A stretch of 64,000 nt of DNA from an uncultured Paracoccaceae bacterium (lineage in GTDB: Bacteria; Pseudomonadota; Alphaproteobacteria; Rhodobacterales; Rhodobacteraceae), in NCBI GenBank assembly GCA_947500135.1, contig CANMQX010000006.1, positions 310,001-374,000 on the forward strand, in the 5' to 3' direction. Below the pieces are notes generated by a model. The model was not told where the DNA came from, made no database searches, and saw only the letters and a program-made list of their open reading frames with translations. Below are positions 15,732-53,151 of this stretch, piece by piece (position 1 is the stretch's first letter; every line of letters starts with the position of its first letter). The position numbers and the translations under genes were made by a program.

Positions 15732-18700
15732 CTACAGGTCAATCGTGACTGTGCCGCCATTTTCTGCCGCGCGGCTTTGGCATAGGATGATCGCATCCTG
15801 CCGTTGTGCCTTGGACAGCACAAAATCCCGGTGCTCCACATCCCCCGCGACCAACCCGCATTTGCAGACCCCGCAAATGCCGTCGCTGCATTTGACGTCC
15901 ACATGCACCCCGTTTTCGGCCAGCACATCAGTGGCGGATTTATCTGCTGGTATATCAAACACTTGGCCGGATCGCGCCAGTTTCAGCTGGAAAGGGTGGT
16001 TCACATAATCCGGCTGTTCGGGCACCGCAAAATATTCCAGATGCTGCGCGTTTTCTGGAAAACCGGCCTCCGTCGCCGCCGCCAATATCGCGGTCATGTA
16101 GCGTTCTGCCCCGCAGGTATAGACATGCCAGCCGGGCTGGTAGCCGCCAAGTATCTGCCCCAGATCGGCCCGGCTGCCTTCATCCGTCACATGCAACTGC
16201 ACCCGGTCCGCCCAGGCAAAGCCTGCAATATCATCTAACAGTCCCATCATGTCCCGACGACGCCCGGAATAATGCATCTCAAACGACTGCCCTTGTGCGT
16301 GCAATTCATGCGCCATCGCCACCAGTGGCGTGATCCCGATCCCACCGCCCATCAGCACGCTATGGCTCGCGTCGGGGTCCAGCGGGAAATGGTTGATCGG
16401 TTTGGAGATGAAAATCCGCCGCCCTTCATTGAAGATCCGGTGCATCAGTTTCGATCCGCCTCGCCCGGCATCTTCGCGCAGCACAGCGATCTGATAGCAG
16501 CTACGATCTGCCGGGTTACCCGACATCGAATATTGCCGCAGGAATTCCGGAGTCACCACGATATCCAGATGCGCGCCCGCCTGCCATGCAGGCAGATCGC
16601 GGCCATCCACGGGCGCAAATTCATATTTCATCACGCCTTGGGCGGTTTCCTCGGCCTTTGTAATCTCAACCTGAATGACAGGACTTTCGCCTTCGACCGT
16701 ATAGGCATGGATGACCTCTTTGTCCCCCTGCGCCAGCCGCGCCTTGTATTCATCCGCCGTGATCATCGCCTGATAGGCCTCGATCCCCGCTTCACGATCC
16801 ATCGGGAACGGGTAAGGATGCGGATGCGGGGCCAGCGGAGCCGGATAAACCGCCAAAGTCTGGTCGGCATATTGCAGGTCCAGATCCCTTTGCAGGGATC
16901 GCTGGTTCACCGGCTGCGGGGTTGGGCGGTAGCCCCCATCCTCCGTGATCTCCAGATCCCACCACCATTTCTTGACGGGGTTCAGCCCTCCATTTCCGAC
17001 CGTATCATCCAGCCGGGCCAATGCTGGGGCAAGCTGTGGGACATTCATCGCCGCCCAGCGAAACGGCTTTTCTTTGAATATCCCTTCCAGGTTCCAGGGG
17101 CAGGTTTTCATGCAGCGCCCGCACATCGCCCCGCCGGGTGTGGTCACTCGATATGTCGCGCATTTCTGGCTGTCGGATTTCCAGATCTCATAGCCGTTGA
17201 ACATCAGCTTGGGGCCTGCGGTGATCGCCCCTGACGGACATTCGCGCGCGCATTTATTGCAAGCCTCACAGAACTTCTGCAGGCCGAAATCAATCGGCTT
17301 GTCATGCGCCATGGGCAGGTCGGTTGTCACCGTCCCCGATTTCAGGCGCGGCCCCAGATAGGGGTTCAGGATCACCTCACCAATCCGGCTAACCTCGCCC
17401 AGACCGCTGAGCAGCAAAAGCGGCGGTTGCAGCACCTCGCCATCCATGACCGTATGGGCTTTGGCGCTATAGCCCAGATTGCGGATTTGCCGGGCGATGA
17501 TCCCACCCAGCAAGGAAAACCGCAAATAGGCCCGCATGGATTGGGCCACGGCGATCCAGTCATCGCCTGATGAGCCTTCCATGGTTTCATAGCCTTGATC
17601 GATGATCATGTTGATCGCCTGATCATGGGGCGGGGCAATCGCCTCTCCGCGCGCATCATGGCTGTACCACGCCCAATCGGGGCAGCGCGAAATGCCCACT
17701 GCATCAGCCCCCAGCCAATAGCTGGTCGCCTTGATCAGGTCAGCGGCTTCAATAGGATCAAGCCTGACTTTTTCATGCGCAGCCTCCCCATCCTGCAACA
17801 GCACAAAGGCGCCCAGCGCCCGCCGTTGCGCCATGGAAGGGGCCGCCTTGCGCACGTAATGCCCGCCCTTGGCCGCATCCTGCATCTTCTTGCCCATATC
17901 GCCAAACTGCGCCCGGGCGAACATATCCGCCCGTTTCGGCACGCGGGCCACATTCGGTTCGTCAATATAGGTGGTTGGTGTCGCCACCCGTTTGAGCCGC
18001 TCAAACGGGTGCGCCCCATCAACAAAGCGGCGTTTGGCGTAAGGCACAGCATTCAATGCGTTCTTGGCGGATGTTGTGCCGAATTTCCACCCTGCCCCAA
18101 AGGCCGATTTCGGTTGATCCGCCATGGGGACAAGCGGTTGATCGGGGGCAATCTCAAAACGGGTCGTTACGGCCGCCAGACCAAAGCGCGTTCCGACATA
18201 AGGATGGCGCAACTGCCCATTTTCGACCGTTGCAAGCCCCGCCGCCACGGCAAGCCGGCTCAAATCAACATCTGCGCTGGACATCATGTGCCCACGCGCC
18301 GGATAGCCCAACAGCCGCAGATAATTGGCCATCACCACAGCCGTTTCAGATGCTAGCAGTCCCGCTCGATGAGCCTGTGCATCGGCGATCCAGCCAGTAC
18401 CCGGTTCATTCGCCCGCGGATCACGCGGGTTTTCATAAAGAAACACCAGCGCATGGCTATGATCATCAATGCCGGTTGGCGGGGCCTCCATCGACTCTTT
18501 CAGATCGGCCATGATCATGTCGATGCCAGACGCCAGCGTCTTGGTCTGTCGTGTCTTCAGGTCATGGGCCAGCCCGCCGATATCGGGGTTCAGATAGGGC
18601 TGATCCAACCGGGCGGCATCAGGCAGCAAACAGGTGCCAACAACGGCCGCATCTGCGAAATAGCCAAAAGCCTTGAGGTGATTGGCCCGTTCCAGCGGAT

Positions 18701-18941
18701 CACCGGGCGCCTCTGCCACCACCCCATTGACCAGCCCATCGCGGATCGCGTCCAGCATCGCCTGATGTTCGCGCATCGCATTGACGATGGATCGCGGATC
18801 GGCGGGCCGGTCAAAGCTTAGTGGGCGGGTTGCGGGCACATCCGCAAGATCGGGCATGGCCGGCAGCCGGGCCAGCCTTTCGCAAGGATATGGGCCCAGA
18901 TGGACAGGGCGGGTTTTGTCGGAAAAGAAACGGATGGTCAT
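15732..18941 (-). CDS. rdhA: Self-sufficient reductive dehalogenase (RdhA fused to flavin reductase and [2Fe-2S] ferredoxin)
   Basis: Predicted cytosolic, corrinoid-dependent reductive dehalogenase of 1069 residues. Residues about 50-550 form two successive B12-fold halves: NYLRLLGYPARGH ... HPYVGTRFGLAAVTT repeats as RQIRNLGYSAKAH ... NPYLGPRLKSGTVTT. Two [4Fe-4S] sites follow, CEACNKCARECPSG (near 560) and CGRCMKTCPWN (near 610, with an upstream Cys). From about 740 comes a phthalate-dioxygenase-reductase type module (RQYSMSGNPADRSCYQ, LMGGGIGITPLVAMAH), and at the end a plant-type [2Fe-2S] ferredoxin (CSDGICGVCKCG plus a distal Cys). This order is known from BhbA and NpRdhA, which debrominate hydroxybenzoates using NAD(P)H. 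There is no Tat signal and no rdhB anchor. It lies directly behind a MarR gene divergent from hmgA. The start MTIRFFSD was chosen over one 10 codons upstream. Confidence 0.9.
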   Translation of the reverse strand: MTIRFFSDKTRPVHLGPYPCERLARLPAMPDLADVPATRPLSFDRPADPRSIVNAMREHQAMLDAIRDGLVNGVVAEAPGDPLERANHLKAFGYFADAAVVGTCLLPDAARLDQPYLNPDIGGLAHDLKTRQTKTLASGIDMIMADLKESMEAPPTGIDDHSHALVFLYENPRDPRANEPGTGWIADAQAHRAGLLASETAVVMANYLRLLGYPARGHMMSSADVDLSRLAVAAGLATVENGQLRHPYVGTRFGLAAVTTRFEIAPDQPLVPMADQPKSAFGAGWKFGTTSAKNALNAVPYAKRRFVDGAHPFERLKRVATPTTYIDEPNVARVPKRADMFARAQFGDMGKKMQDAAKGGHYVRKAAPSMAQRRALGAFVLLQDGEAAHEKVRLDPIEAADLIKATSYWLGADAVGISRCPDWAWYSHDARGEAIAPPHDQAINMIIDQGYETMEGSSGDDWIAVAQSMRAYLRFSLLGGIIARQIRNLGYSAKAHTVMDGEVLQPPLLLLSGLGEVSRIGEVILNPYLGPRLKSGTVTTDLPMAHDKPIDFGLQKFCEACNKCARECPSGAITAGPKLMFNGYEIWKSDSQKCATYRVTTPGGAMCGRCMKTCPWNLEGIFKEKPFRWAAMNVPQLAPALARLDDTVGNGGLNPVKKWWWDLEITEDGGYRPTPQPVNQRSLQRDLDLQYADQTLAVYPAPLAPHPHPYPFPMDREAGIEAYQAMITADEYKARLAQGDKEVIHAYTVEGESPVIQVEITKAEETAQGVMKYEFAPVDGRDLPAWQAGAHLDIVVTPEFLRQYSMSGNPADRSCYQIAVLREDAGRGGSKLMHRIFNEGRRIFISKPINHFPLDPDASHSVLMGGGIGITPLVAMAHELHAQGQSFEMHYSGRRRDMMGLLDDIAGFAWADRVQLHVTDEGSRADLGQILGGYQPGWHVYTCGAERYMTAILAAATEAGFPENAQHLEYFAVPEQPDYVNHPFQLKLARSGQVFDIPADKSATDVLAENGVHVDVKCSDGICGVCKCGLVAGDVEHRDFVLSKAQRQDAIILCQSRAAENGGTVTIDL

Positions 18942-18987
18942 TGGGCGACACCTAAACCCAGCATGGCCCAAACAGCAAGGCCAGCCA

Positions 18988-19434
18988 TCAACTGCCCCGC
19001 CCGGTATCGATGATATGGCGCAGGCAGCGGCGTAGAATATCTCGCTCTGTCACACTAAACGCACCCATCAGCGTATCATCGAAACGCTGCGCTTCTTCGA
19101 CCAGATCGTCAAACGCCGCCTTGCCTGTCCGGGTCAATGACAGCAATTCATGCCGCCGGTCACCCTCAAGCGGTTGGCGGGTCAGAAAGCGCCGTTTTTC
19201 CAACGCCGCGACGGCCCGGCTGACCTTGGTTTTATGAATACTAGCGCGGGTGCAAATCTCTTTCGCGGTCAGATCGCCATAGCGGCCCAGATGAAACACC
19301 ACCCGCCATTCGGTCCGCTGCATCCCGTAACGCGCCTTGTAGTAGCGTTGGAAATCAAGGCTTGATGCCTCTGCCGCGCGGTTCAGCAAATAGGGCATGA
19401 AATGCTGTAAATCGAAATCCGTCTTTTCTGTCAT
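18988..19434 (-). CDS. MarR-family transcriptional regulator
   Basis: Winged-helix regulator of 148 residues. The core is QRTEWRVVFHLGRYGDLTA (helices before the reader), HKTKVSRAVAALEKRRFL (recognition helix) and GDRRHELLSLTRTG (wing). MarR proteins usually respond to aromatic acids. It is divergent from hmgA and is followed 46 bases later by the reductive dehalogenase, so it probably controls both arms of this locus. A start 13 codons earlier exists, but the MTEKTDFDL start leaves the divergent promoter free. Confidence 0.88.
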   Translation of the reverse strand: MTEKTDFDLQHFMPYLLNRAAEASSLDFQRYYKARYGMQRTEWRVVFHLGRYGDLTAKEICTRASIHKTKVSRAVAALEKRRFLTRQPLEGDRRHELLSLTRTGKAAFDDLVEEAQRFDDTLMGAFSVTERDILRRCLRHIIDTGRGS

Positions 19435-19456
19435 ATTGGCAAAATGGCGATTGATA

Positions 19457-19470
19457 GTTACAAATGCAAC
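19457..19470. promoter_or_regulatory. Candidate MarR operator in the divergent hmgA promoter
   Basis: An imperfect palindrome GTTACAAATGCAAC (pattern GTTrCAwwTGyAAC) lies midway between the MarR start and the hmgA start, the usual place for an autoregulatory MarR site. It is nested between distal arms ATATTGG and CCAATAT. The call rests on symmetry and position only. Confidence 0.5.
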
Positions 19471-19508
19471 CAATATCAGGGGCGAAGATAATCAAGGGGA
19501 GCTGCCCA

Positions 19509-20870
19509 ATGAATAAAGTCACTGTGTCCGATGGCCTGACCCGCGCCGCAACAAGCGTTGGGGTGACCGACGGCTATATGCCGGGTTTCGGCAATGATTT
19601 CGAAACAGAAGCCCTGCCCGGTGCCCTGCCCCTTGGCATGAACAGCCCGCAGAAATGCAATTACGGGCTTTATGGTGAACAGCTGTCCGGCACCGCCTTC
19701 ACCGCCCCCAGCCATCAAAACGAACGGACCTGGTGCTATCGCATCCGCCCATCGGTCAAACATTCGCATCGCTACGCCCGGATTGACCTGCCCTATTGGA
19801 AATCGGCCCCACATATCCCGGCAGATGTCACCAGCCTTGGTCAGTACCGCTGGGATCCGGTGCCGCATAGCGATGAAGAGCTGACATGGCTGACGGGCAT
19901 GCGCACCATGACAACCGCCGGTGATGTCAACACGCAGGTCGGCATGGCCAGCCATATCTATCTGGTCACGCAAAGCATGCAGGACGCCTATTTCTATTCT
20001 GCCGATAGCGAAATGCTGGTCATCCCGCAGGAAGGACGTCTGCGCTTTGCCACTGAACTGGGGGTAATCGACCTCGCCCCGCAAGAGGTTGCGATTATCC
20101 CGCGCGGGCTGGTTTACCGGGTCGAAGTGCTGGAAGGGCCTTGCCGAGGCTTTGTTTGCGAAAACTACGGTCAGAAATTCGAACTGCCGGGCCGCGGCCC
20201 GATCGGGGCCAATTGCATGGCCAATCCGCGTGATTTCAAAACCCCGGTGGCTGCCTTTGAAGATCGCGAGACCCCCTCGACGCTCACAATCAAATGGTGC
20301 GGCCAGTTTCACGAAACCAGGATCGGGCACAGCCCGCTGGACGTGGTCGCATGGCACGGCAATTATGCCCCCTGCAAATATGATCTGACGACGTATTGCC
20401 CGGTTGGCGCAATCCTGTTTGACCATCCTGACCCGTCGATCTTTACAGTGCTGACCGCCCCGTCGGGCCAGCCCGGCACGGCCAATATCGACTTCGTCCT
20501 GTTCCGCGAACGCTGGATGGTGGCAGAGGATACTTTCCGCCCCCCATGGTACCACAAGAATGTTATGTCTGAGCTGATGGGCAATATCTATGGCCAGTAT
20601 GACGCCAAGCCCAAGGGGTTCGTCCCCGGGGGCATGTCCCTGCACAACATGATGCTGCCCCATGGGCCGGACAAGAATGCGTTCGAGGGGGCGTCCAATG
20701 CCGATCTGGGGCCTGAAAAGCTGGACAACACCATGTCCTTCATGATCGAAACCCGCTTTCCCCAGCACTTGACCAGTTTTGCGGGCAAAGAGGCCCCGTT
20801 GCAGGATGACTACATCGACTGCTGGGCCGATCTGGAAAAGAAATTTGACGGGACGCCGGGCAAGAAATGA
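19509..20870 (+). CDS. hmgA: Homogentisate 1,2-dioxygenase
   Basis: Non-haem Fe(II) dioxygenase that opens the homogentisate ring to maleylacetoacetate. The 453-residue product contains the family hallmark [18 protein letters not shown] near its start, [20 protein letters not shown], and the C-terminal metal-site region [19 protein letters not shown]. The reading frame extends upstream, but AAGGGGAG lies ahead of the ATG opening MNKVTVSDG. It heads an operon and its TGA overlaps the next ATG. Confidence 0.97.
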
Positions 20871-21826
20871 AGATCGCAACCCTTCAAAACGACGGCCCCG
20901 ATGGCGGGCTTGTCCGGGTCAGCGATGACCTGCGCGCCTACACCACATGCAAAGCACCAACCTTACAACGCGCGCTCGACGGGGCCGGGTTCGCAGCAAA
21001 TGGGCAGGATGAAGATTTCGGGGATGCGCTCTGCCTCTCCCCTCTGCCGCGCGCCTATCAGTTCCTTGATGGATCGGCCTATGTAAACCATGTCGAACTG
21101 GTGCGCAAAGCACGCGGCGCTGCAATGCCCGAAAGCTTCTGGACCGATCCGCTGATGTATCAGGGTGGCTCTGACAGCTTCGTTGGCCCCACCGACCCGA
21201 TCATCGGTGAACCCGACTGGGGGATCGATTTCGAGGGGGAAATCGCCGTGATCACTGGCTCGGTGCGCATGGGGGCAACCCGCGACCAAGCACTAGAAGC
21301 GATCCGTTTTGTCATGCTCTGCAACGATGTGTCCCTGCGCAATCTAATCCCGGGTGAACTGGCCAAAGGGTTCGGCTTTGTCCAATCCAAACCGGCCTGC
21401 GCCTTTTCGCCCGTGGCGGTCAGCCCCGATGCCCTGCCCGGCTGGCAGGATGGCAAACTGCACGGCATCCTGAATATCGACCTGAACGGCGAACCCTTTG
21501 GACGGGTCGATGCGGGTATTGATATGACCTTCGATTTCGGCACGCTAATCGCCCATGCCGCCAAAACCAGACATCTGGCCGCAGGAACCATCATCGGGTC
21601 CGGCACGGTGTCCAACAAACTGGATGGCGGGCCGGGCAAAACGATCAACCAACGCGGGGCCGGCTATGCCTGCATTGCAGAACAGCGCATGGTCGAAACC
21701 ATCCTTGATGGCACGCCCAAAACGCCATTCCTGCAACCGGGCGACCGCGTCCAGATCTGGATGGATGATGCGGATGGCCAAAACATCTTTGGCACGATCG
21801 ACCAAACCGTCGAAGGGTTTGCATGA
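20867..21826 (+). CDS. fahA: Fumarylacetoacetate hydrolase family protein (probable fumarylacetoacetase)
   Basis: Hydrolase of 319 residues of the FAH superfamily, expected to split fumarylacetoacetate to fumarate and acetoacetate as the last homogentisate step. Metal and active-site signatures include [42 protein letters not shown] and [12 protein letters not shown]. It is shorter than the eukaryotic-type fumarylacetoacetase, which is common for bacterial clusters. Start codon overlaps the hmgA stop (ATGA). The family is certain; the specific reaction follows from context. Confidence 0.88.
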
Positions 21827-21905
21827 CAAACGCCACTCTTGCTTATCATTTTGCCAAAAATACTCCCGCCGGAGGCATCTGCCAGCGCAACAAAGGACCG
21901 CATTC

Positions 21906-22856
21906 ATGAGTAAAGCATTCGCATCCCAAGGCGACATGACAGAGAAACAAATCACGTTCGACGAAGTCGGACGTGGCCTTTGGGCGTTCACCGCTGAAGG
22001 CGATCCCAATTCCGGCGTCATCATCGGCGATGACAGCGTGATGATTGTGGAGGCGCAGGCGACCCCCCGTCTGGCCGAAAAGGTGATCGAAAAGGTACGC
22101 AGCGTCACCGACAAGCCGATCAGCCATCTGGTGCTGACCCATTACCACGCCGTGCGGGTGCTGGGCGCATCCGCCTATGGCACCGATCAGATCATCATGT
22201 CAGATGCGGCGCGCGGCATGGTCGCCGAACGCGGGCGGGAAGACTGGGACAGCGAATTTCAACGCTTCCCGCGCCTGTTCGAAGGGCATGAAAGCATCCC
22301 CGGCCTGACATGGCCGACCACAACCTTCAACGACAGCATGACCGTCTATCTGGGCAAACGTCGTGTCGACATCAAACATATCGGCCGGGCGCATACGGCG
22401 GGTGACGCCGTGGTGCATGTGCCCGATCAGAACGTGATGTTTACTGGCGACATCGTCGAATATCACTCTGCCTGCTATTGCGGCGACGGGTATTTTGCCG
22501 ATTGGGGTGACACGCTTGACCGGATCATGGCCTATGATGTTGACGCCATCGCACCGGGGCGCGGTGATGCGCTGGTGGGCAAGGATATGGTCAATACCGC
22601 CATCGAAAACACACGTGATTTCGTCGAAAGCACCTATCGCCCCGCCGCCCGCGTCGCGTCGCGCGGTGGCTCCCTGAAAGAGGCATGGGACGCTGTGCGC
22701 GCGGAATGCGACCCGAAATTCGCCGATTATGCAATCTACGAACATTGCCTGCCCTTCAACGTCGCCCGCGCCTATGACGAGGCGCAAGGCATCGCCCATC
22801 CGCGCATCTGGACCGCCCAGCGCGATCTGGAAATGTGGGCGGCCTTGCAAGGATGA
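21906..22856 (+). CDS. MBL-fold protein with altered metal motif, in homogentisate operon
   Basis: Metallo-beta-lactamase-fold protein of 316 residues. The usual HxHxDH motif reads THYHAVRVLGAS here, so both Asp and the third His are replaced while the first two His remain. Other ligands appear conserved: GRAHTAGDAVVH and MFTGDIVEYHSA. This suggests one metal site or altered chemistry. The true start is MSKAFASQGD, 79 bases after the FAH gene; upstream codons of the open frame overlap that gene. It is followed with an ATGA overlap by the DinB-like gene. Its role in aromatic breakdown is unknown. Confidence 0.8.
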   Translation: MSKAFASQGDMTEKQITFDEVGRGLWAFTAEGDPNSGVIIGDDSVMIVEAQATPRLAEKVIEKVRSVTDKPISHLVLTHYHAVRVLGASAYGTDQIIMSDAARGMVAERGREDWDSEFQRFPRLFEGHESIPGLTWPTTTFNDSMTVYLGKRRVDIKHIGRAHTAGDAVVHVPDQNVMFTGDIVEYHSACYCGDGYFADWGDTLDRIMAYDVDAIAPGRGDALVGKDMVNTAIENTRDFVESTYRPAARVASRGGSLKEAWDAVRAECDPKFADYAIYEHCLPFNVARAYDEAQGIAHPRIWTAQRDLEMWAALQG

Positions 22857-23383
22857 GCCACGCGTTGCAATCCTACCTGTTGGCGGCCCAGAACAACGCC
22901 TGGGCCAATGCCACGCTTTACAACGCGATCAGCGGGATGGGCAGTGCGGCGTTCGCGGCCCCACGTCCGGGGTTTTTCCCATCGCTTAGCCAAACGCTGA
23001 ACCATATTTACGAGGTTGATTTGTATTACCTCGATGCGCTGGAAAATGGCGGTCTCGGGCGCGCCGTTTATGATCGCACAGACATTATGGATGTTGCTGA
23101 ACTGGCGCGAGCACAGGCTGCGGTGGATGCCAGACTGATCGCATTCTGCGCTGACATGACAGAGGATGTGCTTGCCCAGACACGGCTGACCGACCGACGG
23201 GAAGGACCCGTGCAGGAAACGGTGGCCAACCTGCTGCCGCACCTGATCCAGCACCAGATCCATCATCGCGGTCAGGCACATGTGCAGGTGCAAGACGCAG
23301 GCATTGCGCCGCCACAACTGGATGATTTCTATCTGATCTATGGCCGGGTTCCGTCCGCAACCGACTACCGTGGCGAAGGCTGA
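22853..23383 (+). CDS. DinB-like four-helix metalloprotein, possible isomerase of the pathway
   Basis: Protein of 176 residues with the DinB/YfiT-like pattern: an N-terminal helix (SYLLAAQNNAWANATLYNAI), a His in LSQTLNHIYEVDLYYLDAL and HLIQHQIHHRGQAHV near the C-terminus. Together these give the three-His metal site of the superfamily. Some DinB-fold enzymes are thiol-dependent isomerases, for example mycothiol-dependent maleylpyruvate isomerase. The operon has no zeta-class glutathione-transferase maleylacetoacetate isomerase, so this gene is a candidate for that step. That role is inference; the fold assignment is good. Confidence 0.75.
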   Translation: MSHALQSYLLAAQNNAWANATLYNAISGMGSAAFAAPRPGFFPSLSQTLNHIYEVDLYYLDALENGGLGRAVYDRTDIMDVAELARAQAAVDARLIAFCADMTEDVLAQTRLTDRREGPVQETVANLLPHLIQHQIHHRGQAHVQVQDAGIAPPQLDDFYLIYGRVPSATDYRGEG

Positions 23384-23385
23384 CC

Positions 23386-25020
23386 ATGGTTGATATGCGC
23401 TACAGCACCGAATTCACACTCTACCCCTATACCAAGCAGGCCGCACCATCCGACCGGCAGCCTGTTGTGATCATTGGCGCTGGCCCAATTGGTTTGGCCC
23501 TCGCCCTCGACCTTGGTCAAAAAGGAACCCCAGTCCTGGTGCTGGACGATCATGAAGGCCCCGGTCAGGGCAGCAAGGCGATCTGTTTTTCGAAACGGAC
23601 GCTTGATATCGCCCACAGGCTTGGGGCCGCTGCCCCGATGGTGGACAAAGGCGTGGTCTGGCAAGTTGGCAAGGTGTTCCACGGGCAGGATAAGCTTTTT
23701 GAATTCAACCTCCTACCCGAAGAAGGTCACCGCAACCCAGCCTTCATCAATCTGCAACAGCCGCTGTTCGAAAAATACCTGCATGATGCGGTTGTTGCCG
23801 CACAGTCAGGCGGCGCCCCAATTAAAATCCGTGGCCGCAACCGGGTCACGGCAATTACCGATCAGGGCGCGTTTGTGACGCTTGATGTGCAAACCCCCGA
23901 TGGTTCTTATCAGCTAGAGGCCGACTATCTGGTCGCCTGTGACGGCGCCCGTTCGCCCAGCCGCGATATGCTGGGCCTCAGCTTTGATGGCCGTGTATTC
24001 GAGGATAACTTCCTGATCGCCGATGTCCGCATGAAGGCCGATTTCCCGACCGAGCGCTGGTTCTGGTTCCAGCCCCCGTTTGAAGGGGCGGGTCAATCCG
24101 CACTGCTGCACAAGCAACCCGATGATATCTGGCGCATCGATTTTCAACTGGGCTGGGAGATTGACCGTGCGCATGAGCTTGACCCCGCCCGTATCCGCGC
24201 CCGGGTTGATGCGATGCTGTCATCGCAGACCGGCACGATTCCGGATTATGAATTGGCTTGGACCTCGATTTATACGTTCCAGTGCCGCCGCATGCAGGAT
24301 TTCCGCGCCGGGCGGGTTTTCTTTGCCGGGGATGCCGCGCATCAGGTGTCGCCTTTTGGGGCGCGGGGGGCCAATTCGGGGCTACAGGATGCCGAAAACC
24401 TGGCCTGGCGGCTTGATCTGGTGTGCAAGGGTATCGCGGCACCCGATTTGCTGGATCACTACTGCACAGAGCGGGAATTCGCGGCGGATGAAAACATCCT
24501 CAATTCATCACGGGCCACTGATTTCATGACCCCTAAAACGGATGTCAGTCGGCAGTTCCGCGATGCCGTGCTGCATCTGGCGGAGCGTCACGCCTTTGCC
24601 CGCCCATTTGTGAATTCTGGTCGTTTATCAGTACCGTGCATCTATGATGGTTTTACGGGATTTGGGCCGGATGCGCTGAATGGACCTGCAGTGACCCGGC
24701 CCGGTGCGGCCTGCCAGGACGCCCCCGTGGCAGATGGTTTCTTGCTGGATCATGTGCGCGCAGGCTTTAACCTACTGGTACTCGGCGATGGCGTGGCAGA
24801 GCCTGTGACAGCTGCAGGCGTAACGGCGCATATCGCGCATATCCCGACACCGACGCCCGCGCTGGCAGCCCGGTATTTGGGCGATCATCGTCGCGCAGTC
24901 TATCTGATCCGCCCGGATCAACATGTCATTGCCCGTTGGTCCGATTTTGATGCAAACAGCATCGCCAATGCGCTGCGTGCAACAATTCGACAGGAGGCCG
25001 CTCATGGCGCTGATGCTTGA
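23386..25020 (+). CDS. FAD-dependent aromatic hydroxylase (class A flavin monooxygenase)
   Basis: Soluble flavoprotein hydroxylase of 544 residues. FAD is bound at VVIIGAGPIGLALALDL, the DG motif is YLVACDGARSPSRD, and the second FAD contact is FFAGDAAHQVSPFGARGANS. These mark the family containing MhpA, PheA and MobA type phenol and hydroxybenzoate hydroxylases, with the thioredoxin-like C-terminal extension. It lies two bases after the DinB-like gene in the hmg operon. It may hydroxylate a hydroxyphenylacetate to homogentisate, but the substrate cannot be read from the sequence. Confidence 0.85.
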   Translation: MVDMRYSTEFTLYPYTKQAAPSDRQPVVIIGAGPIGLALALDLGQKGTPVLVLDDHEGPGQGSKAICFSKRTLDIAHRLGAAAPMVDKGVVWQVGKVFHGQDKLFEFNLLPEEGHRNPAFINLQQPLFEKYLHDAVVAAQSGGAPIKIRGRNRVTAITDQGAFVTLDVQTPDGSYQLEADYLVACDGARSPSRDMLGLSFDGRVFEDNFLIADVRMKADFPTERWFWFQPPFEGAGQSALLHKQPDDIWRIDFQLGWEIDRAHELDPARIRARVDAMLSSQTGTIPDYELAWTSIYTFQCRRMQDFRAGRVFFAGDAAHQVSPFGARGANSGLQDAENLAWRLDLVCKGIAAPDLLDHYCTEREFAADENILNSSRATDFMTPKTDVSRQFRDAVLHLAERHAFARPFVNSGRLSVPCIYDGFTGFGPDALNGPAVTRPGAACQDAPVADGFLLDHVRAGFNLLVLGDGVAEPVTAAGVTAHIAHIPTPTPALAARYLGDHRRAVYLIRPDQHVIARWSDFDANSIANALRATIRQEAAHGADA

Positions 25021-25189
25021 TCCCAATATCACCGATCCTGACGGGTTCTATGACGAATTGCTGGCCGCCCATGATGGGTTGAGCGCGGCGGAAAGCGCTA
25101 ATTTCAACGCTCGTTTGATCCTGATCCTGGCCAACCATATCGGCGACCGGGAGGTATTGGCTGCGGCACTTGCGGCGGCGAATGACTGA
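25004..25189 (+). CDS. DUF2783 small protein
   Basis: 61-residue protein beginning MALMLDPNITDPDGFYDELL, typical of DUF2783, followed by AHDGLSAAESANFNARLILI and ANHIGDREVLAAALAAA. It is an acidic, helical protein of unknown function often found next to this type of flavin hydroxylase. The ATG lies inside the 3' end of the hydroxylase gene, with a strong GGAGG site ahead of it, so translation is coupled. It may assist hydroxylase assembly; that is speculation. Confidence 0.8.
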   Translation: MALMLDPNITDPDGFYDELLAAHDGLSAAESANFNARLILILANHIGDREVLAAALAAAND

Positions 25190-44759: not shown

Positions 44760-46316
44760 TCAGAAATCCGTCGGCGCGCCGCCCTCGGCTTTGCGGCGCT
44801 CCACAAAATCACCCAATGCCTCCTTGACGCCCACATCAATTGGCGGCGCTTCGAAATCGTTCAGGATGTCTTTGTAGGTCCGGTGTGCCCGCTCTGCTGT
44901 CCAGATTCCGCCGGCGGCCTCCCACGCTTCGAAGTTCTGCCAGTTTGATACAAACGGCTGATAGAAGGCCCTTTCATATCTTTCTTGCGTATGATCGATC
45001 CCAAAGTAGTGGCCATTCGGACCAACCTCCTTAATCGCGTCGAACGCGATATCCTCTGGGCCGGTCGCCACGATTTCGGGTTCCATATAGCGCTGGATCA
45101 TTTGCAGGATCTCGCAATCCATCACGAATTTTTCCGGACAGGCCACCAGCCCCCCCTCAAGCCAGCCCGCTGCGTGGTAGACGATATTCGTGCCCGATTG
45201 GACCGCAGACCACAGCGCGTTTGACGTCTCCCACATCGCTTGCCCGTCGGGGACATTAGCCGCACAAGACCCGGACGCACGCATCGGCACCCCATAAAAC
45301 CGCGCCATCTGCCCGGTCATCTGGGTCGCACGCATGTATTCTGGCGTGCCAAAGGCGGGCGCACCGGATTTCATGTCCACATTGCTGGTGAAGGTCCCGA
45401 TTACACAAGGCGCACCGGGGCGCACATATTGGAACAGCGCAATGGCGCTGACCGCTTCGGCAATGGAAAGGGTCACCGCACCTGACATGGTCACCGGTGC
45501 CATCGCTCCGGCCAGTGTAAATGGGGTCACCATGATCGCCTGACCACGGCGCGCACAACGCAGGCAGCCATCAATCATCAGATCATCATGCTTAAGCGGC
45601 GAGGTCGAGTTGATGTTGGTATACATATGCGGCTTGGCGGCAAAATCACCTTCGCCGAGCTGGCCTGCGATCTTGACCATCTCCATGACATCTTCGACCC
45701 GTTCTTTGCCAAGCGAATAGGCGTGAACCACCTTATCGGTCAGCATCATCTTGTCGTACATGATGTCGAGATGACGCACCGATGGATGCAAATCGACCGC
45801 CTCGACCGGGTACCCCCCCGCGAAATGGATGCAGTTGAAATACTGGGTCAATCGCAAAAGGTTGGCACATTGCGCCCGGGTGCCCGAGACCTTCTTGCCG
45901 ATCTCAAGGTCAAAATAATTGGGCGGGGAAGACACATTGCCAAACAGGATATGTTTGCCCCCAAGGGTAATCTTGTGATCCGGGTTACGCGGGGTGATGT
46001 CGAATTGTGGAGGCGCGTGGCCCAACATCTCCATCACCCAATCACGGCCCATACGGACATTGGTGCCGTTGACGGTGCACCCCGCCTCTTTGAACAGGGC
46101 CAGCGCTTCGTCGTGCAGAAACTCGATCCCGACCTCTTCAAGGATACGCATCGCGCCGTCATGGATCGCCTGCACACCATCTTCGGTCAGCGGCTCGGTC
46201 GGCCGGTCCGTATTAACCGGGATGCGCCAAGGCATCTGTTCGATCGCGGCACTGCCGCGCCTATTGGCTGCCCCTGCCCGACCACCACCACGCCGTCTTG
46301 GTTTTTCACTAGCCAT
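44760..46316 (-). CDS. Trimethylamine methyltransferase (MttB) family protein, non-pyrrolysine type
   Basis: 518-residue corrinoid-methyltransferase superfamily protein. Conserved parts include EILEEVGIEFL-like segment RILEEVGIEFLHDEALALF, GTFTSNVDMKSGAPAFGTPE and YHAAGWLEGGLVACPEKF. The frame has no internal amber codon, so it is not the pyrrolysine trimethylamine enzyme but one of the many homologues, some of which (MtgB) demethylate glycine betaine. A basic Arg/Gly-rich N-terminal tail (KPRRRGGGRAGAANRRG) is present. No corrinoid protein or reactivase lies beside it. The start MASEKPR was chosen over one eight codons earlier. Confidence 0.85.
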   Translation of the reverse strand: MASEKPRRRGGGRAGAANRRGSAAIEQMPWRIPVNTDRPTEPLTEDGVQAIHDGAMRILEEVGIEFLHDEALALFKEAGCTVNGTNVRMGRDWVMEMLGHAPPQFDITPRNPDHKITLGGKHILFGNVSSPPNYFDLEIGKKVSGTRAQCANLLRLTQYFNCIHFAGGYPVEAVDLHPSVRHLDIMYDKMMLTDKVVHAYSLGKERVEDVMEMVKIAGQLGEGDFAAKPHMYTNINSTSPLKHDDLMIDGCLRCARRGQAIMVTPFTLAGAMAPVTMSGAVTLSIAEAVSAIALFQYVRPGAPCVIGTFTSNVDMKSGAPAFGTPEYMRATQMTGQMARFYGVPMRASGSCAANVPDGQAMWETSNALWSAVQSGTNIVYHAAGWLEGGLVACPEKFVMDCEILQMIQRYMEPEIVATGPEDIAFDAIKEVGPNGHYFGIDHTQERYERAFYQPFVSNWQNFEAWEAAGGIWTAERAHRTYKDILNDFEAPPIDVGVKEALGDFVERRKAEGGAPTDF

Positions 46317-46400
46317 CTGCGCATTCCTTCTCCCTGCCAATTCAGAATGCCAAGGGAGCAGAAATCGTGATGACGAAAATGCGACATAACCTGTCGGTTT

Positions 46401-47129
46401 TCAGGGCTGTGCGGCCAGCCAATCGGGCATCTCCGCGATAGAGGCCAAAACAACATCCGCCGCGGGGGCCAGTTCTGCCCGGGATGCAGGGCCGGTCAGC
46501 ACCCCGATTGTGCGCATCTGTGCGGCCTGCCCGGCATGCAAATCATGCAAACTGTCCCCCACCATGACGCATTCTGACGGGGCCAGCCCGGTTGCGGCAC
46601 AAAACGCCAAAAGCTGACCGGGCGCTGGTTTTCCCCCATGACCGCTGTCAAAGCCTGCCACAAATGAAAACGCATCAATCACACCCGCCGCCTGCAGATG
46701 CGCACGCGCTGGCATTTCTGCATCATTGGTCGCAATGCCAAGCGTAAACCCGCGCGCAGCAAGCATTTGGCAGAAGGGGATCAGCGGGGCCGCTTCGACC
46801 TGCGGAACCTTGCTGGCGGCAGCGTTCATCCGGGTGATCAACTGCGCCGCATCAGTGTCCGGCAAATGCGGCAACATGGCCTGCGCGACCACATCAACCG
46901 TTTCCGCAATCACAATACTGCCGGGCAGGAATCGCGACTGCGTCAGATCATAGCCCAACACCTCAGCCAATGTCGCAAGGCGCAGCTCATCTCCACCTGC
47001 CTCTTCACGCAGCATATGCTGTGCCCACACGCCCCATGTGGCGTTAAAGTCAAAAAGGGTGCCATCTTTGTCAAAGATAATTCCTTTTATTTCAGCATGT
47101 TCGCCAGAGGAGTGCATATTCATGTCCAC
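46401..47129 (-). CDS. HAD-family phosphatase (phosphoglycolate phosphatase-like)
   Basis: 242-residue haloacid-dehalogenase hydrolase. Motif I IIFDKDGTLFDFNATW has the nucleophile Asp, motif II is LGIATNDAEM, motif III Lys in GFDSGHGGKPAPGQLL, and motif IV ECVMVGDSLHDLHAG. A C1 cap lies between motifs I and II. Lys in place of the usual second residue (FDKDGT) is common in Gph-like enzymes. It overlaps the end of the DUF3572 gene by ten bases. Substrate not certain. Confidence 0.82.
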   Translation of the reverse strand: MDMNMHSSGEHAEIKGIIFDKDGTLFDFNATWGVWAQHMLREEAGGDELRLATLAEVLGYDLTQSRFLPGSIVIAETVDVVAQAMLPHLPDTDAAQLITRMNAAASKVPQVEAAPLIPFCQMLAARGFTLGIATNDAEMPARAHLQAAGVIDAFSFVAGFDSGHGGKPAPGQLLAFCAATGLAPSECVMVGDSLHDLHAGQAAQMRTIGVLTGPASRAELAPAADVVLASIAEMPDWLAAQP

Positions 47130-47398
47130 TGCACATTCTCCGCCCCTGGCAGAGCATAGCGCGCGCGCAACGGTTGATCATAGGCCAGATTTACAGTGTC
47201 GCAGAATGCAATCACCCACGCATCATCCATGGTGATGAACTCCAAAACGGAGGCAAGAAAGGCAGGATCAGTCGCATTCTGCTGCATCTCTTCGGCAGTT
47301 CCGCCTGTGGCCCCTAGAAAAACCGGGCAAAGTTCTTCATTGCCCACCAGCCAGCCCAAGGCCTGGTAAGCGATTGTTTGCGCATCGTCACGGTGCAT
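47120..47398 (-). CDS. DUF3572 family small protein
   Basis: 92-residue acidic helical protein matching DUF3572, with AQTIAYQALGWLVGNEELCP near the start, FLGATGGTAEEMQQNATDP and VLEFITMDDAWVIAFCDTV. The family is restricted to alphaproteobacteria and has no known function. Start is the first ATG. It is co-transcribed with the HAD phosphatase and divergent from the PleD-like gene. Confidence 0.8.
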   Translation of the reverse strand: MHRDDAQTIAYQALGWLVGNEELCPVFLGATGGTAEEMQQNATDPAFLASVLEFITMDDAWVIAFCDTVNLAYDQPLRARYALPGAENVQWT

Positions 47399-47495
47399 TA
47401 AAATTCCTTACATCAACAGAAACTGTTTCTTAACCATTCGGACAGAAATTGGGCCTCACCACGAAACGTGGATATGACTACCAGAGGATACAGAA

Positions 47496-48887
47496 ATGTC
47501 CGGCCGAATCTTGATCATTGATACCGTTGCTACAAACCGCATTGTGTTGAAAGTAAAAATGTTGGCGGCGCAGTTCAGTGTAGATGCATGTTCCAGCCGG
47601 ATCGAGGCTGAGGCGATCATTTCCACCAATCGGCCCGACCTTATCCTGATTAATCTGTCTGACCCGGTGGAAGACCGGCATGACTTTTGCCGGGTCCTTA
47701 AAAATGACCCTGAAACATCGAATGTCGCTGTCATCGCCGTGGGGGTGGCAGACACGTCAAAGGCCCGTTTTGCGGCCCTTGATGTGGGTGCTGATGATGT
47801 GCTGCCCAACCCGATGAATGATACACTACTTCTGGCGCGTATCCGCAGCCTGCTACGTGTTCGCAGTGCCAGTCAGGAACTTTTGCTGCGCGACAGCACC
47901 AGCCGTGCGCTTGGTTTTGAAGAGGCGAATGCGCTGTTTGAAACAGCCGCCCATGTTGCCCTGATTTCGCAAGAAGATGCTTGCGACGCCAGTCTGAACC
48001 AGATGTTGCTGAACGGTTTGGGCCAGCCGGTGCGTGCGCTTGCATCCAATTGCGTCCTGAAACAAACGGCAGTGACACCTGTACCGGATCTCTTTGTCAT
48101 CGACGGCGCGCATCCCGACTGTGATCGCAAGGCGCTTTACCGGCTCGTTTCTGACCTGCGTTCGCGGGCCGAAACGCGATTGTCGACCCAACTGATCGTC
48201 GTGCCCCATAACGAACCCGAAATGGCGGCGATGTTTCTAGATCTGGGCGCCGACGACATTGTCAGCAGCGGCACATCTGAGGGCGAATTGACCCTACGTG
48301 CCAAGGCCCTGATCCGACGCAAATTATTGCATGATCGGCTGCGCGACACGGTACGCAACGGTCTGCATGCTGCAGTCACTGACCCGCTGACCGGGCTTTA
48401 CAACCGGCGCTATGTGCAGGCGCATCTGACACGTTTGGCCGAACAATCGCGCGGCTCTGGCCGGGAACTGGCCGTGATGATGCTGGATATCGATCACTTC
48501 AAACAGGTGAATGACACGCATGGTCATGCTGCGGGTGATCAGGTGCTTGTGCAACTGGCCGACCGCCTGCGTGAAAACCTGCGCGCCATCGATCTTGTCG
48601 CCCGTGTCGGGGGCGAGGAATTTTTGGTCGCGATGCCGCGCACCAGTGCGGCCCAGGCACATCTGGCCGCTGACCGCTTACGCCGTTTGGTGAATGAACG
48701 CCCCTTTGATCTGGGCAATGGCGGTCGAAAGCTGAAAGTCACCGCGTCTGTTGGGGTGGCCACAAGTGGACGGCGCGACATCGAAAAAAGCCATCTGAAC
48801 AAGATATGCGATCAGGCTGATGCCGCCCTTTATGCGGCCAAATCAGCGGGCCGCAATCAGGTCGCGATGAGCAAGTCAGCCGCCTGA
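47496..48887 (+). CDS. pleD: PleD-like response regulator with GGDEF diguanylate cyclase domain
   Basis: 463-residue protein with REC-REC-GGDEF order that should make cyclic di-GMP. The first receiver (1-120) starts RILIIDTVATNRIVL, but its phosphoacceptor position reads DLILINLSDP, with Asn where PleD has Asp. The second receiver (about 150-280) has PDLFVIDGAHPDCD and ends VSSGTSEGELTLRAKALI. The cyclase domain has TDPLTGLYNRRYV, DIDHFKQVNDTHGHAAGD and the active site ARVGGEEFLVAMP. An RxxD inhibitory site (RAID) stands five residues ahead of GGEEF. The gene stands alone. Confidence 0.88.
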   Translation: MSGRILIIDTVATNRIVLKVKMLAAQFSVDACSSRIEAEAIISTNRPDLILINLSDPVEDRHDFCRVLKNDPETSNVAVIAVGVADTSKARFAALDVGADDVLPNPMNDTLLLARIRSLLRVRSASQELLLRDSTSRALGFEEANALFETAAHVALISQEDACDASLNQMLLNGLGQPVRALASNCVLKQTAVTPVPDLFVIDGAHPDCDRKALYRLVSDLRSRAETRLSTQLIVVPHNEPEMAAMFLDLGADDIVSSGTSEGELTLRAKALIRRKLLHDRLRDTVRNGLHAAVTDPLTGLYNRRYVQAHLTRLAEQSRGSGRELAVMMLDIDHFKQVNDTHGHAAGDQVLVQLADRLRENLRAIDLVARVGGEEFLVAMPRTSAAQAHLAADRLRRLVNERPFDLGNGGRKLKVTASVGVATSGRRDIEKSHLNKICDQADAALYAAKSAGRNQVAMSKSAA

Positions 48888-49361
48888 GCGATCATCGCGG
48901 GACTTGCGCGGGCGGCGCATTTCATTCTCTAACCGATCCGCGAATGCTGCGCGCTCATCCGGCGTCATGGCAACAATCTGTGCGACCAGCGCTTCACTCG
49001 ATTTTGCCTGAATGGCGGCGAAACGTTCGCCTTGCATCGCCATCAGGTCTTGCAATGCGGCTGGGTCGAACGGCTCTTGCCGTAGGCTCGACACGATCTG
49101 TACAAATTGTCCGCGCAAATTCATGCCACGCACATCGCGGTCCTCGCGCAATGCCCGGCCAATCGCCCTGCGATCTTGTGGTTCAAGTGCGCGTGCCATC
49201 GGCCCCGGCCCGAACTCAAAAGATCGCGGCGGCCCGTTCCCTAATCGCCCTGACAAACCCGCACCGGCGACAATGCCAACCACGATCAGATTCAACGTAA
49301 GCGACAAGACCAATATGGTCCGCCACATGCGCGAGGGTTTACTCTTTGCGACCTCAACCAT
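48876..49361 (-). CDS. Periplasmic Spy/CpxP-like (heavy-metal resistance type) protein
   Basis: 161-residue protein with one N-terminal membrane anchor (TILVLSLTLNLIVVGIVAGAGL). The rest is helical and charged and fits the metal-resistance/Spy-like family (PF13801), with LEPQDRRAIGRALREDR and MTPDERAAFADRLENEMRR. It is the last gene of an ECF sigma-factor module; its start overlaps the stop of the putative anti-sigma gene. The start MVEVAKSK was chosen at this overlap. It may sense or chaperone envelope damage. Confidence 0.72.
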   Translation of the reverse strand: MVEVAKSKPSRMWRTILVLSLTLNLIVVGIVAGAGLSGRLGNGPPRSFEFGPGPMARALEPQDRRAIGRALREDRDVRGMNLRGQFVQIVSSLRQEPFDPAALQDLMAMQGERFAAIQAKSSEALVAQIVAMTPDERAAFADRLENEMRRPRKSRDDRSGG

Positions 49362-49695
49362 CTCCCAACTCTCCGAAATCCGCGAACCCACTGGCACTGC
49401 CAAGATGAACGGTAACCGTTTCGCCCAGTAGTCCGGCGGTCAATTCCTCGACGGCTAAAGGTGGCGCAATACCGATCCAAAGACCCGCCAGCGTGGCCGT
49501 GGCCAAACCACCCATCGCAAACCAGCCGCCAACCGCATCCAGCAAACCGGCCCATATCCCCGGCGCATCAACGGACGTCTCTGGCGGTCTGGCATCGGCC
49601 AGAACGCGCGCCAAAAGGTCGTCACTAACGGGCGGTTTGACGCGCCTTGCCTGCGCAAACAGATCGTCCAGCATATCCTCATTTGGGTCAGTCAT
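49354..49695 (-). CDS. Putative anti-sigma factor, small membrane protein
   Basis: 113-residue protein starting MTDPNEDMLDDLFAQARR, with a cytosolic acidic helix and one membrane segment (WFAMGGLATATLAGLWIGIA). The start overlaps the stop of the sigma-factor gene. Position and single-TM layout suggest an anti-sigma factor, but no His-Cys zinc motif is present, so the assignment is inferred. It overlaps the Spy-like gene downstream. Confidence 0.6.
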   Translation of the reverse strand: MTDPNEDMLDDLFAQARRVKPPVSDDLLARVLADARPPETSVDAPGIWAGLLDAVGGWFAMGGLATATLAGLWIGIAPPLAVEELTAGLLGETVTVHLGSASGFADFGELGDG

Positions 49696-50275
49696 CCTCA
49701 TACCCCAATTCTGCTTTGCGGCCCGCCATGATGTCGGCAAGCGCGCGTTTTCCACGCGCCGTCAGACTTTCCACCGACCGCACACTGATGTCCATGATCT
49801 CTGCGATCTCGGGGTTGGACAGCCCCTCAAGATGGCGCAGTGCAACCGCCTGCGCCTGCCGCTCGGGCAGTTGCGCCAAACCTTCTGACAGGGCGCGCAT
49901 CCGGGCCGCTGTCTGCATCTGCGCGCCCACGCTCGGCGTGTCATCAGCCGGTTCAGCCACCTGATCAAGCGAAACGCCACCGCGTCTTTTACGCAGCCGG
50001 TCGGTACACAGGTTCGCCACAACCCGGTAGAGCCACGTGCCAACCTGCGCCTCGCCCTGCCGCCAATCAGGCGCCACTTTCCACAGACGCATCATCGCAT
50101 CCTGTGCCACATCTTCGGCCTCTGTCCGGTCAAACAGCATACGCGTGGCCTGCGCCAGAACGCGCGGCAATAGCCGGGACGCCAACAGGCGCGCCGCCAG
50201 CTGGTCGCCATTGGCAAAGGCCACCAGCAACGCCTCGTCGGGGATCGTTACATCTGGATCGGGTGCAATGCTCAT
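49688..50275 (-). CDS. ECF-type RNA polymerase sigma factor
   Basis: 195-residue sigma-70 family protein of the extracytoplasmic-function class. Region 2 shows LFDRTEAEDVAQDAMMRLWK and VGTWLYRVVANLCTDRLRKR; region 4 shows LPERQAQAVALRHLEGLSNP and MDISVRSVESLTARGKRALA. It is encoded upstream of a small membrane protein and a Spy-like protein, with an EF-hand protein gene 74 bases before it. Together these look like an envelope-stress or metal-response module. Confidence 0.9.
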   Translation of the reverse strand: MSIAPDPDVTIPDEALLVAFANGDQLAARLLASRLLPRVLAQATRMLFDRTEAEDVAQDAMMRLWKVAPDWRQGEAQVGTWLYRVVANLCTDRLRKRRGGVSLDQVAEPADDTPSVGAQMQTAARMRALSEGLAQLPERQAQAVALRHLEGLSNPEIAEIMDISVRSVESLTARGKRALADIMAGRKAELGYEDD

Positions 50276-50349
50276 CTATCGCCTTGCTAATCGGGCGTTG
50301 AGGCCAAGGCAATCGGCAGGGGCAGAAACGACCCCCGCCGACGTGACAA

Positions 50350-50802
50350 TCATCCGCGACCACGGCGACCATGGCCCCGGCCACCACCGCGACGTTCCTT
50401 GATGGCCTCAAACTCTTCGACGCTGATCGCACCGTCGTCATCTGCATCAAGGCGGTCAAACATCCGTTCTGTCCGGTCAGTCCGGGGCTCAAGCTCGGCC
50501 TGCTGCAAAAGCCCGTCACCATTGGCGTCACGCTGTTCCAGCATCTTGGCGGCCCGCTCAGCGGCTTTTTCGGCCGACGCCGCTGTCAATTCTTCCACCG
50601 ACAGCGCACCATCACCATTGGTATCACGTTCGGCAAAGCGGGCGTCGCGATGTGCGGTCAGTTCCTGCTGGGTCACCGCACCGTCACCATCTGCATCAAG
50701 TGTCGCAAAATCAGGCCGATCAGCTCCGCCTTGGGCCTGGGCTGCACCGGCCGTCATTGTTCCGCCTGCCATCAAGACCACCATCAAGATTTTCTTTGTC
50801 AT
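50350..50802 (-). CDS. Secreted EF-hand calcium-binding protein
   Basis: 150-residue exported protein with signal MTKKILMVVLMAGGTMTAGA. Four EF-hand loops are visible: DADGDGAVTQQE, DTNGDGALSVEE, DANGDGLLQQAE and DADDDGAISVEE. A Gly/Arg-rich tail (RRGGGRGHGRRGRG) ends the protein. The ATG after AGGAAAATGAC was chosen; the open frame upstream is not coding-like. It precedes the ECF sigma gene on the same strand, so it may be controlled by, or signal to, that module. Confidence 0.85.
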   Translation of the reverse strand: MTKKILMVVLMAGGTMTAGAAQAQGGADRPDFATLDADGDGAVTQQELTAHRDARFAERDTNGDGALSVEELTAASAEKAAERAAKMLEQRDANGDGLLQQAELEPRTDRTERMFDRLDADDDGAISVEEFEAIKERRGGGRGHGRRGRG

Positions 50803-50992
50803 GTCATTTTCCTGTTTTTCTCGGTTACGCCGCGACTTTCTGCGTCGCTGACCATTCTTGAACGGGCAGCCGACGCAATTCCGTCGCAACCGGATCAAAA
50901 AACTTGTGACATCGCGCCACATGATGGCGCAGCCCCTTCCAAAAGCCCGCCGGATACGCCATGTGATATTGCAACAAAGCCGGAGCAAACAA

Positions 50993-51382: not shown

Positions 51383-51400
51383 CCCGACAAAGGGACAGAG

Positions 51401-52977: not shown

Positions 52978-53151
52978 GCGCAAGCTATGCACCTGAAATC
53001 ACTGAAATACGAGGTGTGAAAACCGTTCGTTGCACTTGGGCAACTGCTTTTTTAAGTCTATTTTATGTCGCATTAACAGCAACTTTGACGATTAACCCAG
53101 TAGCGACAACGTCAAGTCGAATTCACTGCGATCTATCGAAAGTACAAATGC

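Follow-up and report, generated by a model that had tools for sequence, protein, structure and literature searches.

JtRdhA of the marine bacterium Jhaorihella thermophila is a self-sufficient reductive dehalogenase that was produced in Escherichia coli and is driven by NADPH. According to the consulted parts of the source (PMC10463259), its best substrate among the commercially available compounds assayed is 3,5-dibromo-4-hydroxybenzoate, 3-bromo-4-hydroxyphenylacetate is converted at 99.3% of the best rate, and the enzyme enables E. coli W to grow on the latter compound, one of the phenols with ortho bromine that it dehalogenates. BhbA of Comamonas sp. 7D-2 (plasmid NC_021077) and NpRdhA of Nitratireductor pacificus (PDB 6zxu) are further described relatives. 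Here we analyse an rdhA gene of an uncultured Paracoccaceae bacterium (GenBank assembly GCA_947500135.1, contig CANMQX010000006.1, positions 310,001 to 374,000; this whole stretch of 64,000 nucleotides is called the window), which lies behind a marR gene divergent from a homogentisate (hmg) operon. On balance we consider it probable that this RdhA debrominates bromotyrosine-derived hydroxyphenyl acids before homogentisate cleavage, under a MarR control that is shared with the hmg operon. Since bhbA homologs are reported to be widely distributed in the Roseobacter clade (PMC13101508, in the parts consulted), the presence of this enzyme type is already known; what seems new is its pathway and regulatory setting. 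A literature search on titles and abstract openings, with subscription papers mostly outside its reach, returned no account of a reductive dehalogenase linked to a homogentisate or hydroxyphenylacetate pathway. Likewise, the available text on JtRdhA names no hmg or homoprotocatechuate (hpa) gene context, and a word search of it for 'homogentis' gave no match (PMC10463259).

The locus consists of the following features (window coordinates):

15732..18941, minus strand: rdhA, self-sufficient catabolic reductive dehalogenase; the longest open reading frame (ORF) reaches 18971
18988..19434, minus strand: marR, regulator of the MarR family; relatives have the same kind divergent from hmgA
19450..19475: presumed MarR operator, an inverted repeat conserved in the marR-hmgA intergenic region, with core GTTACAAATGCAAC at 19457-19470
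19509..20870, plus strand: hmgA, homogentisate 1,2-dioxygenase, starting at ATG 19509
20867..21826, plus strand: fah, fumarylacetoacetate-hydrolase-fold protein, short form of 319 aa
21906..22856, plus strand: metallo-beta-lactamase-fold (MBL) protein; relatives have it in their hmg operons too and served to place its start
22853..23383, plus strand: DinB-superfamily protein, in an operon slot that holds a glutathione S-transferase (GST)-type gene in several relatives
23386..25020, plus strand: FAD monooxygenase of the PRK08132 subfamily, possible mhaA (3-hydroxyphenylacetate 6-hydroxylase flavoprotein)
25004..25189, plus strand: 61-aa ORF, possible mhaB coupling protein; it stops where the interval of the sequence-only reading ends

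All genes claimed in that earlier reading (a MarR gene, an RdhA, hmgA and five further operon genes) were found, marR-rdhA being divergent from hmgA-fah-MBL-DinB-mhaA-like-mhaB-like as it stated. The shared intergenic region measures 74 bp, and 46 nt separate the end of marR from the ATG of rdhA.

The rdhA reading frame (15732-18971, minus strand) has 1079 codons, with a likely start at the ATG at 18941 (MTIRFF) that is kept in three close relatives. Its product scores 206.6 bits against the NCBIfam reductive dehalogenase model TIGR02486 (cut-off 160.35). The first two thirds match NpRdhA (E 1.2e-159; 45.6% identity over the alignment blocks), and the last third (residues 762-1069) aligns with 2pia, a phthalate dioxygenase reductase (E 1.5e-53); with the additional Fer2 match, the C-terminus is a fused reductase and 2Fe-2S ferredoxin. 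The proposed assignment to the BhbA/NpRdhA type with these two fused parts is thereby borne out. The cysteine motifs resemble two sites of the 4Fe-4S type and one of the 2Fe-2S type, an RQYSM stretch is what we take to be the flavin motif, and motif reading revealed no twin-arginine RR within the first 45 residues counted from the ATG. BhbA is 50.7% identical to the window protein over 99% of the length. NpRdhA has the corrinoid core and the catalytic residues in common with it but is without the fused reductase, and the window RdhA has about 40 extra residues between two N-terminal alignment blocks. JtRdhA, compared by its description in the consulted parts of PMC10463259, is alike in its fused phthalate-dioxygenase-reductase-like domain, the lack of a Tat signal and the Y-K-R residues. 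Mapping through the 6zxu alignment and the NpRdhA residue numbers of PMC7565698 (consulted in part) shows that S478, M479, Y482, K544 and R608 correspond to NpRdhA S422, M423, Y426, K488 and R552.

These catalytic residues are invariant in 179/179 aligned RdhAs. In comparisons of the window rdhA with loci L263, L278 and L267, dN/dS (ratio of nonsynonymous to synonymous substitution rates, NG86 method) amounts to 0.067-0.080 at a dS of 0.50-0.67; given these values and the open frames, the gene is under purifying selection and not a chance ORF. L263 and L278 share the gene order of the window, whereas L267 (genome G341) carries hpa genes instead. It might be argued that the protein is no dehalogenase but a related corrinoid reductase acting on some other aromatic compound, as it has a weak match to QueG (25.8 bits against a cut-off of 200) and we know of no assay of the window RdhA. 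With the reductive dehalogenase cut-off exceeded and the Y-K-R set of NpRdhA kept in every aligned protein, we consider this very improbable.

A pathway role is indicated by the recurrent linkage of rdhA to hmg and hpa genes. In a scan of named genomes 573 relatives were found, of which the best 80 of 573 were kept with flanks of up to 10 kb; the loci assembled overall, 203 in total, reduce to 188 distinct ones at 99% DNA identity. Counting matches of at least 50% identity over 60% of the query within the fetched flanks, hmgA is present at 11/188 loci, in four layouts. In the first, rdhA is behind marR (window, L263, L278); in the second, the hmg operon is convergent with rdhA (L264, L265, L272, L291, L297). 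In the third, rdhA is downstream of the hmg operon in the same direction (L270), and in the fourth it is ahead of marR//hmgA (L311, and L274 with four ORFs in between). Moreover, hpa genes end in rdhA as the last gene at 4/188 loci, as hpaR//hpaFEDGH-rdhA in L254 (identical to L267), L265 and L272 and as hpaE-D-G-H-rdhA on the short contig of L291. For L254 the HpaD, HpaE, HpaH and HpaR proteins are over the NCBIfam cut-offs, and HpaF and the HpaG-like protein are below.

About 0.70 matches per single-copy gene are expected by chance (2852 kb of flank, assuming a 4.1-Mb genome). If the loci were independent, the probability would be 4e-9 for at least 10 matches, 7e-7 for at least 8 (leaving out the two loci that share the window's order) and 8e-4 for at least 5. 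The loci are not fully independent: a tree of 179 proteins (9/188 were left out for stops or shortness) requires 6 changes for hmg linkage and 5 for linkage to hmg or hpa. All 12 loci linked to hmg or hpa are within one branch of 43 members, against 0/136 outside, though this branch was delimited around the linked genes once these were known, which makes tests inside it descriptive. As a control, 74 genes (from the window and two other stretches of its own genome) were compared to the same loci: 45 had no match, 24 had 1-3 and 5 had 5-10, the highest count equalling the 10 of hmgA. The five high-scoring genes all come from one inherited block at about 44.7-53 kb of the window, near which an RdhA group of roughly 60-66% identity keeps rdhA at similar distances. 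Because of this block effect, we read the linkage by its layout and not by the raw count. In other species the block (window 44760-52992) flanks a marR-rdhA pair of the more distant RdhA group; the corresponding gap in the window holds a gene that by eye resembles a diguanylate cyclase, and no rdhA.

The exact order was studied in two further samples. Among 295 Rhodobacteraceae genomes (G000 being the window's own), 146 matched RdhA at the limit used, many through the reductase part only; by our own tally 115/295 have a true match, three of them fragments. From these genomes 113 loci were fetched with flanks of up to 8 kb, G139 contributing two and a 42% match of G033 being included though outside the tally of 115, and hmgA is near rdhA only in G294, besides the window. 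In a genus sample of 56 genomes, examined with 1.5-kb flanks or coordinates only, rdhA is present in 40/56 and hmgA in 31/56. This genus is presumably Yoonia or near it, since a plasmid stretch of its member G302 is 99.98% identical to a stretch of Yoonia sp. SS1-5. The exact marR-rdhA//hmgA order was found only in G000, G294 and G343, three species of one genus; by coordinates one further close pair exists in G302, with rdhA and hmgA 11.5 kb apart on the same contig. Family genomes with rdhA have hmgA in 101/115 cases and those without it in 98/180 (odds 6.0, uncorrected for relatedness and completeness).

The exact order is thus not a widely conserved unit. The sequence-only reading had held that rdhA not being co-conserved with hmgA elsewhere would speak against it; taken literally this is largely what the strict order shows, whereas the looser linkage (11/188 loci, four layouts) is in its favour. 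Strict synteny had at first suggested a local accident, a view that changed when the scan of named genomes showed the linkage to be recurrent.

The regulator is more widespread than the rdhA behind it. A marR of the same kind is divergent from hmgA in 28 of the 30 best-scoring family hmgA loci (window locus included), and a 26-mer search showed the inverted repeat TTGTTAGTTACAAAATCAACTATTA or a related form in 28 of the 29 of those loci other than the window's. The exact core palindrome of the window operator occurs at one place in its own genome. For 112 other family rdhA loci, a search of the 500 nt upstream did not detect the hmg operator, the best score being 8.9 against 33.9-52 for the sites from which the matrix was built; this search covered the family rdhAs and not the linked loci of the named-genome scan. 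As marR//hmgA and the operator are widespread and the operator was not found at the other family rdhAs, it is probable that in this lineage rdhA joined an hmg regulator that was already in place. Its position has lasted since, with a low rdhA dN/dS at dS 0.50-0.67. Scans of the shared promoter region for sigma-70 promoters and terminators yielded no signal that clearly exceeded chance, and neither did a terminator scan 3' of rdhA, where one terminator-like site was seen against an expectation of 0.4. Counting MarR genes of every kind, at least 26 of the 188 distinct loci have one within 1.4 kb upstream of rdhA, a lower bound that misses the intact marR of L278. At L319 an hmg-type MarR (60%) is directly behind rdhA with hmgA not in the flanks, and this locus was not counted as linked.

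Several observations weigh against a dedicated role in this pathway. Neither hmgA nor hpaD is in the fetched flanks of 176/188 loci (some contigs end early), and the 188-locus set over-represents close relatives of the window. For the unlinked members of the branch (scan of 87/158 near ORFs at 27/31 loci, where TRAP permeases lead with 3/87), no aromatic-catabolism family is among the 25 most frequent of 262 neighbour families. Joint transfer, in addition to a common function, may underlie the linkage. To these come the control count that equals that of hmgA and the failure to find the operator at the 112 other family rdhAs, and the fact that no gene for a 4-hydroxyphenylacetate 1-hydroxylase was identified, no search for one having been made. 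JtRdhA, finally, is not specific, for it also converts bromobenzoates, bromophenols and iodophenols (PMC10463259, parts consulted).

Such points might indicate that rdhA moves about as an accessory gene that serves bromophenol detoxification in general, with no route for bromo-hydroxyphenyl acids and a site behind the hmg marR that is neutral or a transcriptional convenience. The very diverse neighbours of rdhA, its copies on plasmids, an exact order limited to three species and the many bromophenols accepted by JtRdhA (same source, as far as consulted) would fit this. The repeated linkage with two hydroxyphenylacetate-type pathways in varied layouts, above chance and within one branch, argues against it, as does the retention of marR-rdhA//hmgA in three species at dS ~0.5, and we consider the idea unlikely, albeit one with appreciable weight.

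The gene settings elsewhere illustrate this diversity. The Yoonia sp. SS1-5 (G302) chromosome has the order TRAP-rdhA-AraC-nitrilase-like-PPOX, in which the AraC-type, nitrilase-like and PPOX-type genes match NCBIfam models below the cut-offs. Farther along, marR//hmgA is preceded by another pair of nitrilase-like and PPOX-like genes, accompanied by ABC-transporter-like ones (by eye and similarity), and related modules recur on the plasmid of this strain. The plasmid rdhA (L258:5732-8998) is interrupted by a stop codon, and its two chromosomal matches are open. Other plasmids have rdhA beside a MarR gene (Jannaschia) or beside MarR and TRAP genes (Aminobacter). Close rdhA relatives are also seen in L275, L276, L282, L285, L312 and L341, which are titled Granulosicoccaceae or Granulosicoccus (presumably Gammaproteobacteria) and are mostly metagenome bins; these copies point either to transfer between classes or to mis-binning.

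As to the substrate, BhbA offers an obvious alternative. Its plasmid-borne rdhA stands with protocatechuate ring-cleavage genes, whereas the window RdhA adjoins homogentisate genes. RdhA could thus debrominate bromo-4-hydroxybenzoates as BhbA does, the product leaving via protocatechuate and the hmg neighbours being irrelevant to the substrate. The 50.7% identity to BhbA and the best substrate of JtRdhA (PMC10463259, in the sections consulted) would suit this, and pobA-like genes are near 8/188 loci, those of the Comamonas BhbA and the Nitratireductor relative included. In the window's branch, which is linked to hydroxyphenylacetate-type pathways, pobA is found just in L291. Furthermore, at the pocket positions NpRdhA 290, 307, 310, 419 and 452, BhbA and the Nitratireductor relative have F, S, S, S and A, whereas the window and most others have M, A, Y, V and V (154, 155, 170, 157 and 175 of 179), with 307 and 310 near alignment gaps. 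This largely constant pattern is a hint that the substrates belong to another class than those of BhbA, and we regard a hydroxybenzoate role as improbable.

The choice of halogen is guided by JtRdhA and by marine chemistry. The sequence-only reading had guessed a bromo- or chlorohydroxyphenylacetate: the brominated form would fit the activity of JtRdhA, and the chlorinated one is disfavoured because JtRdhA showed no activity on 3-chloro-4-hydroxyphenylacetate or the other chlorinated compounds tested (PMC10463259, available parts). A true substrate among iodinated or chlorinated tyrosine derivatives, for example from iodotyrosine in marine algae, is in our view quite improbable. Although iodinated phenols reach 66-84% of the best rate with JtRdhA, its inactivity on the chlorinated compounds tested stands against the chlorinated form, and brominated hydroxyphenyl acids have been described from a marine alga: the red alga Halopithys incurva is the reported source of 3,5-dibromo-4-hydroxyphenylacetic and -pyruvic acids (PMC13057425, seen in part). 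From a Pseudoceratina sponge, 3-bromo-4-hydroxyphenylacetonitrile is reported (PMC8347048, seen in part).

The wider genome narrows the entry into the pathway. The established route runs from 4-hydroxyphenylpyruvate to homogentisate by 4-hydroxyphenylpyruvate dioxygenase (HPD), and HPD is over its cut-off in G000, encoded outside the window operon. With HPD present and this route established, brominated 4-hydroxyphenylpyruvate or tyrosine would be the most economical substrate here, and bromo-4-hydroxyphenylacetate would be so in the hpa-linked relatives. A genome profile search revealed no HpaD over the cut-off in G000, G294 or G302; G343, which shares the window order, has one elsewhere in its genome. 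CobN is over the cut-off in 4/4 close genomes, the window's included.

In the operon itself, hmgA scores 641.4 bits against TIGR01015 (cut-off 510.75) and the adjoining FAH-fold gene is over the FAA_hydrolase cut-off. Maleylacetoacetate isomerase gave zero maiA matches over the cut-off in the window genome and 13 weaker ones. The DinB-superfamily gene (22853-23383) is within the hmg operon of G000, G294 and G343 and of no other fetched locus, and a GST-type gene takes its place in L252, L256, L257, L262, L265, L291, L297 and L311; the DinB protein may be a non-GST maleylacetoacetate isomerase. MhaAB, a 3-hydroxyphenylacetate 6-hydroxylase, consists of a flavoprotein and a 60-aa coupling protein encoded beside hmg genes in Pseudomonas putida U and Burkholderia xenovorans LB400. 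By description, these operons resemble the window in combining hmg genes with such a pair, and differ in that the window has a DinB gene and a MarR regulator; the consulted parts of the source mention no dehalogenase (PMC3053370). By size and position, the FAD monooxygenase and the 61-aa ORF are a possible MhaA/MhaB-like pair.

The genome seems to encode a second, different dehalogenase. Ros_A3X954 of Roseobacter sp. MED193 is a catabolic reductive dehalogenase from a marine member of the Rhodobacteraceae and debrominates 2,6-dibromophenol (PMC13101508, consulted in part). Its cluster-binding motifs differ from those of the window RdhA, whereas exactly these motifs, CDICTKCADACP and CAICMRVCP, are present in a separate 391-aa protein of the window's own genome (L001:979-2154, on the same contig but outside the window).

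For the favoured debromination of bromotyrosine-derived acids we propose the following mechanism. RdhA would act as an oxygen-tolerant, NAD(P)H-driven debrominase, in which electrons may pass from NAD(P)H via FMN, the 2Fe-2S and two 4Fe-4S clusters to the corrinoid; this path and the proton donor are modelled on JtRdhA and NpRdhA. The corrinoid would strip bromine ortho to the phenolic hydroxyl; Tyr482 would probably donate the proton, and the hydroxyl group would be held by Ser478, Lys544 and Arg608. Since rdhA follows the homogentisate operon's marR, both units would be governed by MarR together with the 74-bp region that they share: a pathway acid would relieve MarR, upon which the hmgA operon is made on one side and marR-rdhA, presumably as one transcript, on the other. 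Likely substrates would be 3-bromo- or 3,5-dibromo-4-hydroxyphenylpyruvate or -acetate, derived from bromotyrosine. The debrominated 4-hydroxyphenylpyruvate would then be converted to homogentisate through HPD, and hydroxyphenylacetates may enter via the MhaAB-like pair; some relatives might couple debromination to the hpa ring-cleavage route instead.

More tentatively, and with somewhat less than even confidence, we suggest that marine Rhodobacteraceae have an aerobic route that mineralises bromotyrosine. A B12-dependent debrominase would be its plug-in first step, joined repeatedly and independently to homogentisate, homoprotocatechuate and nitrile branches (the last via a nitrilase), and in one Yoonia-like lineage the homogentisate MarR would have taken control of it, so that a single switch serves both debromination and ring cleavage. 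The repeated placement by hydroxyphenylacetate and homogentisate genes names a substrate class, the brominated tyrosine derivatives of algae and sponges, which opens the natural role of the self-sufficient dehalogenases, frequent in this family, to direct tests in named strains. Several marine bacteria with rdhA beside similar pathways may thus have a route for consuming brominated natural compounds, and if this is true, B12 supply would be linked to marine bromine cycling under oxygen.

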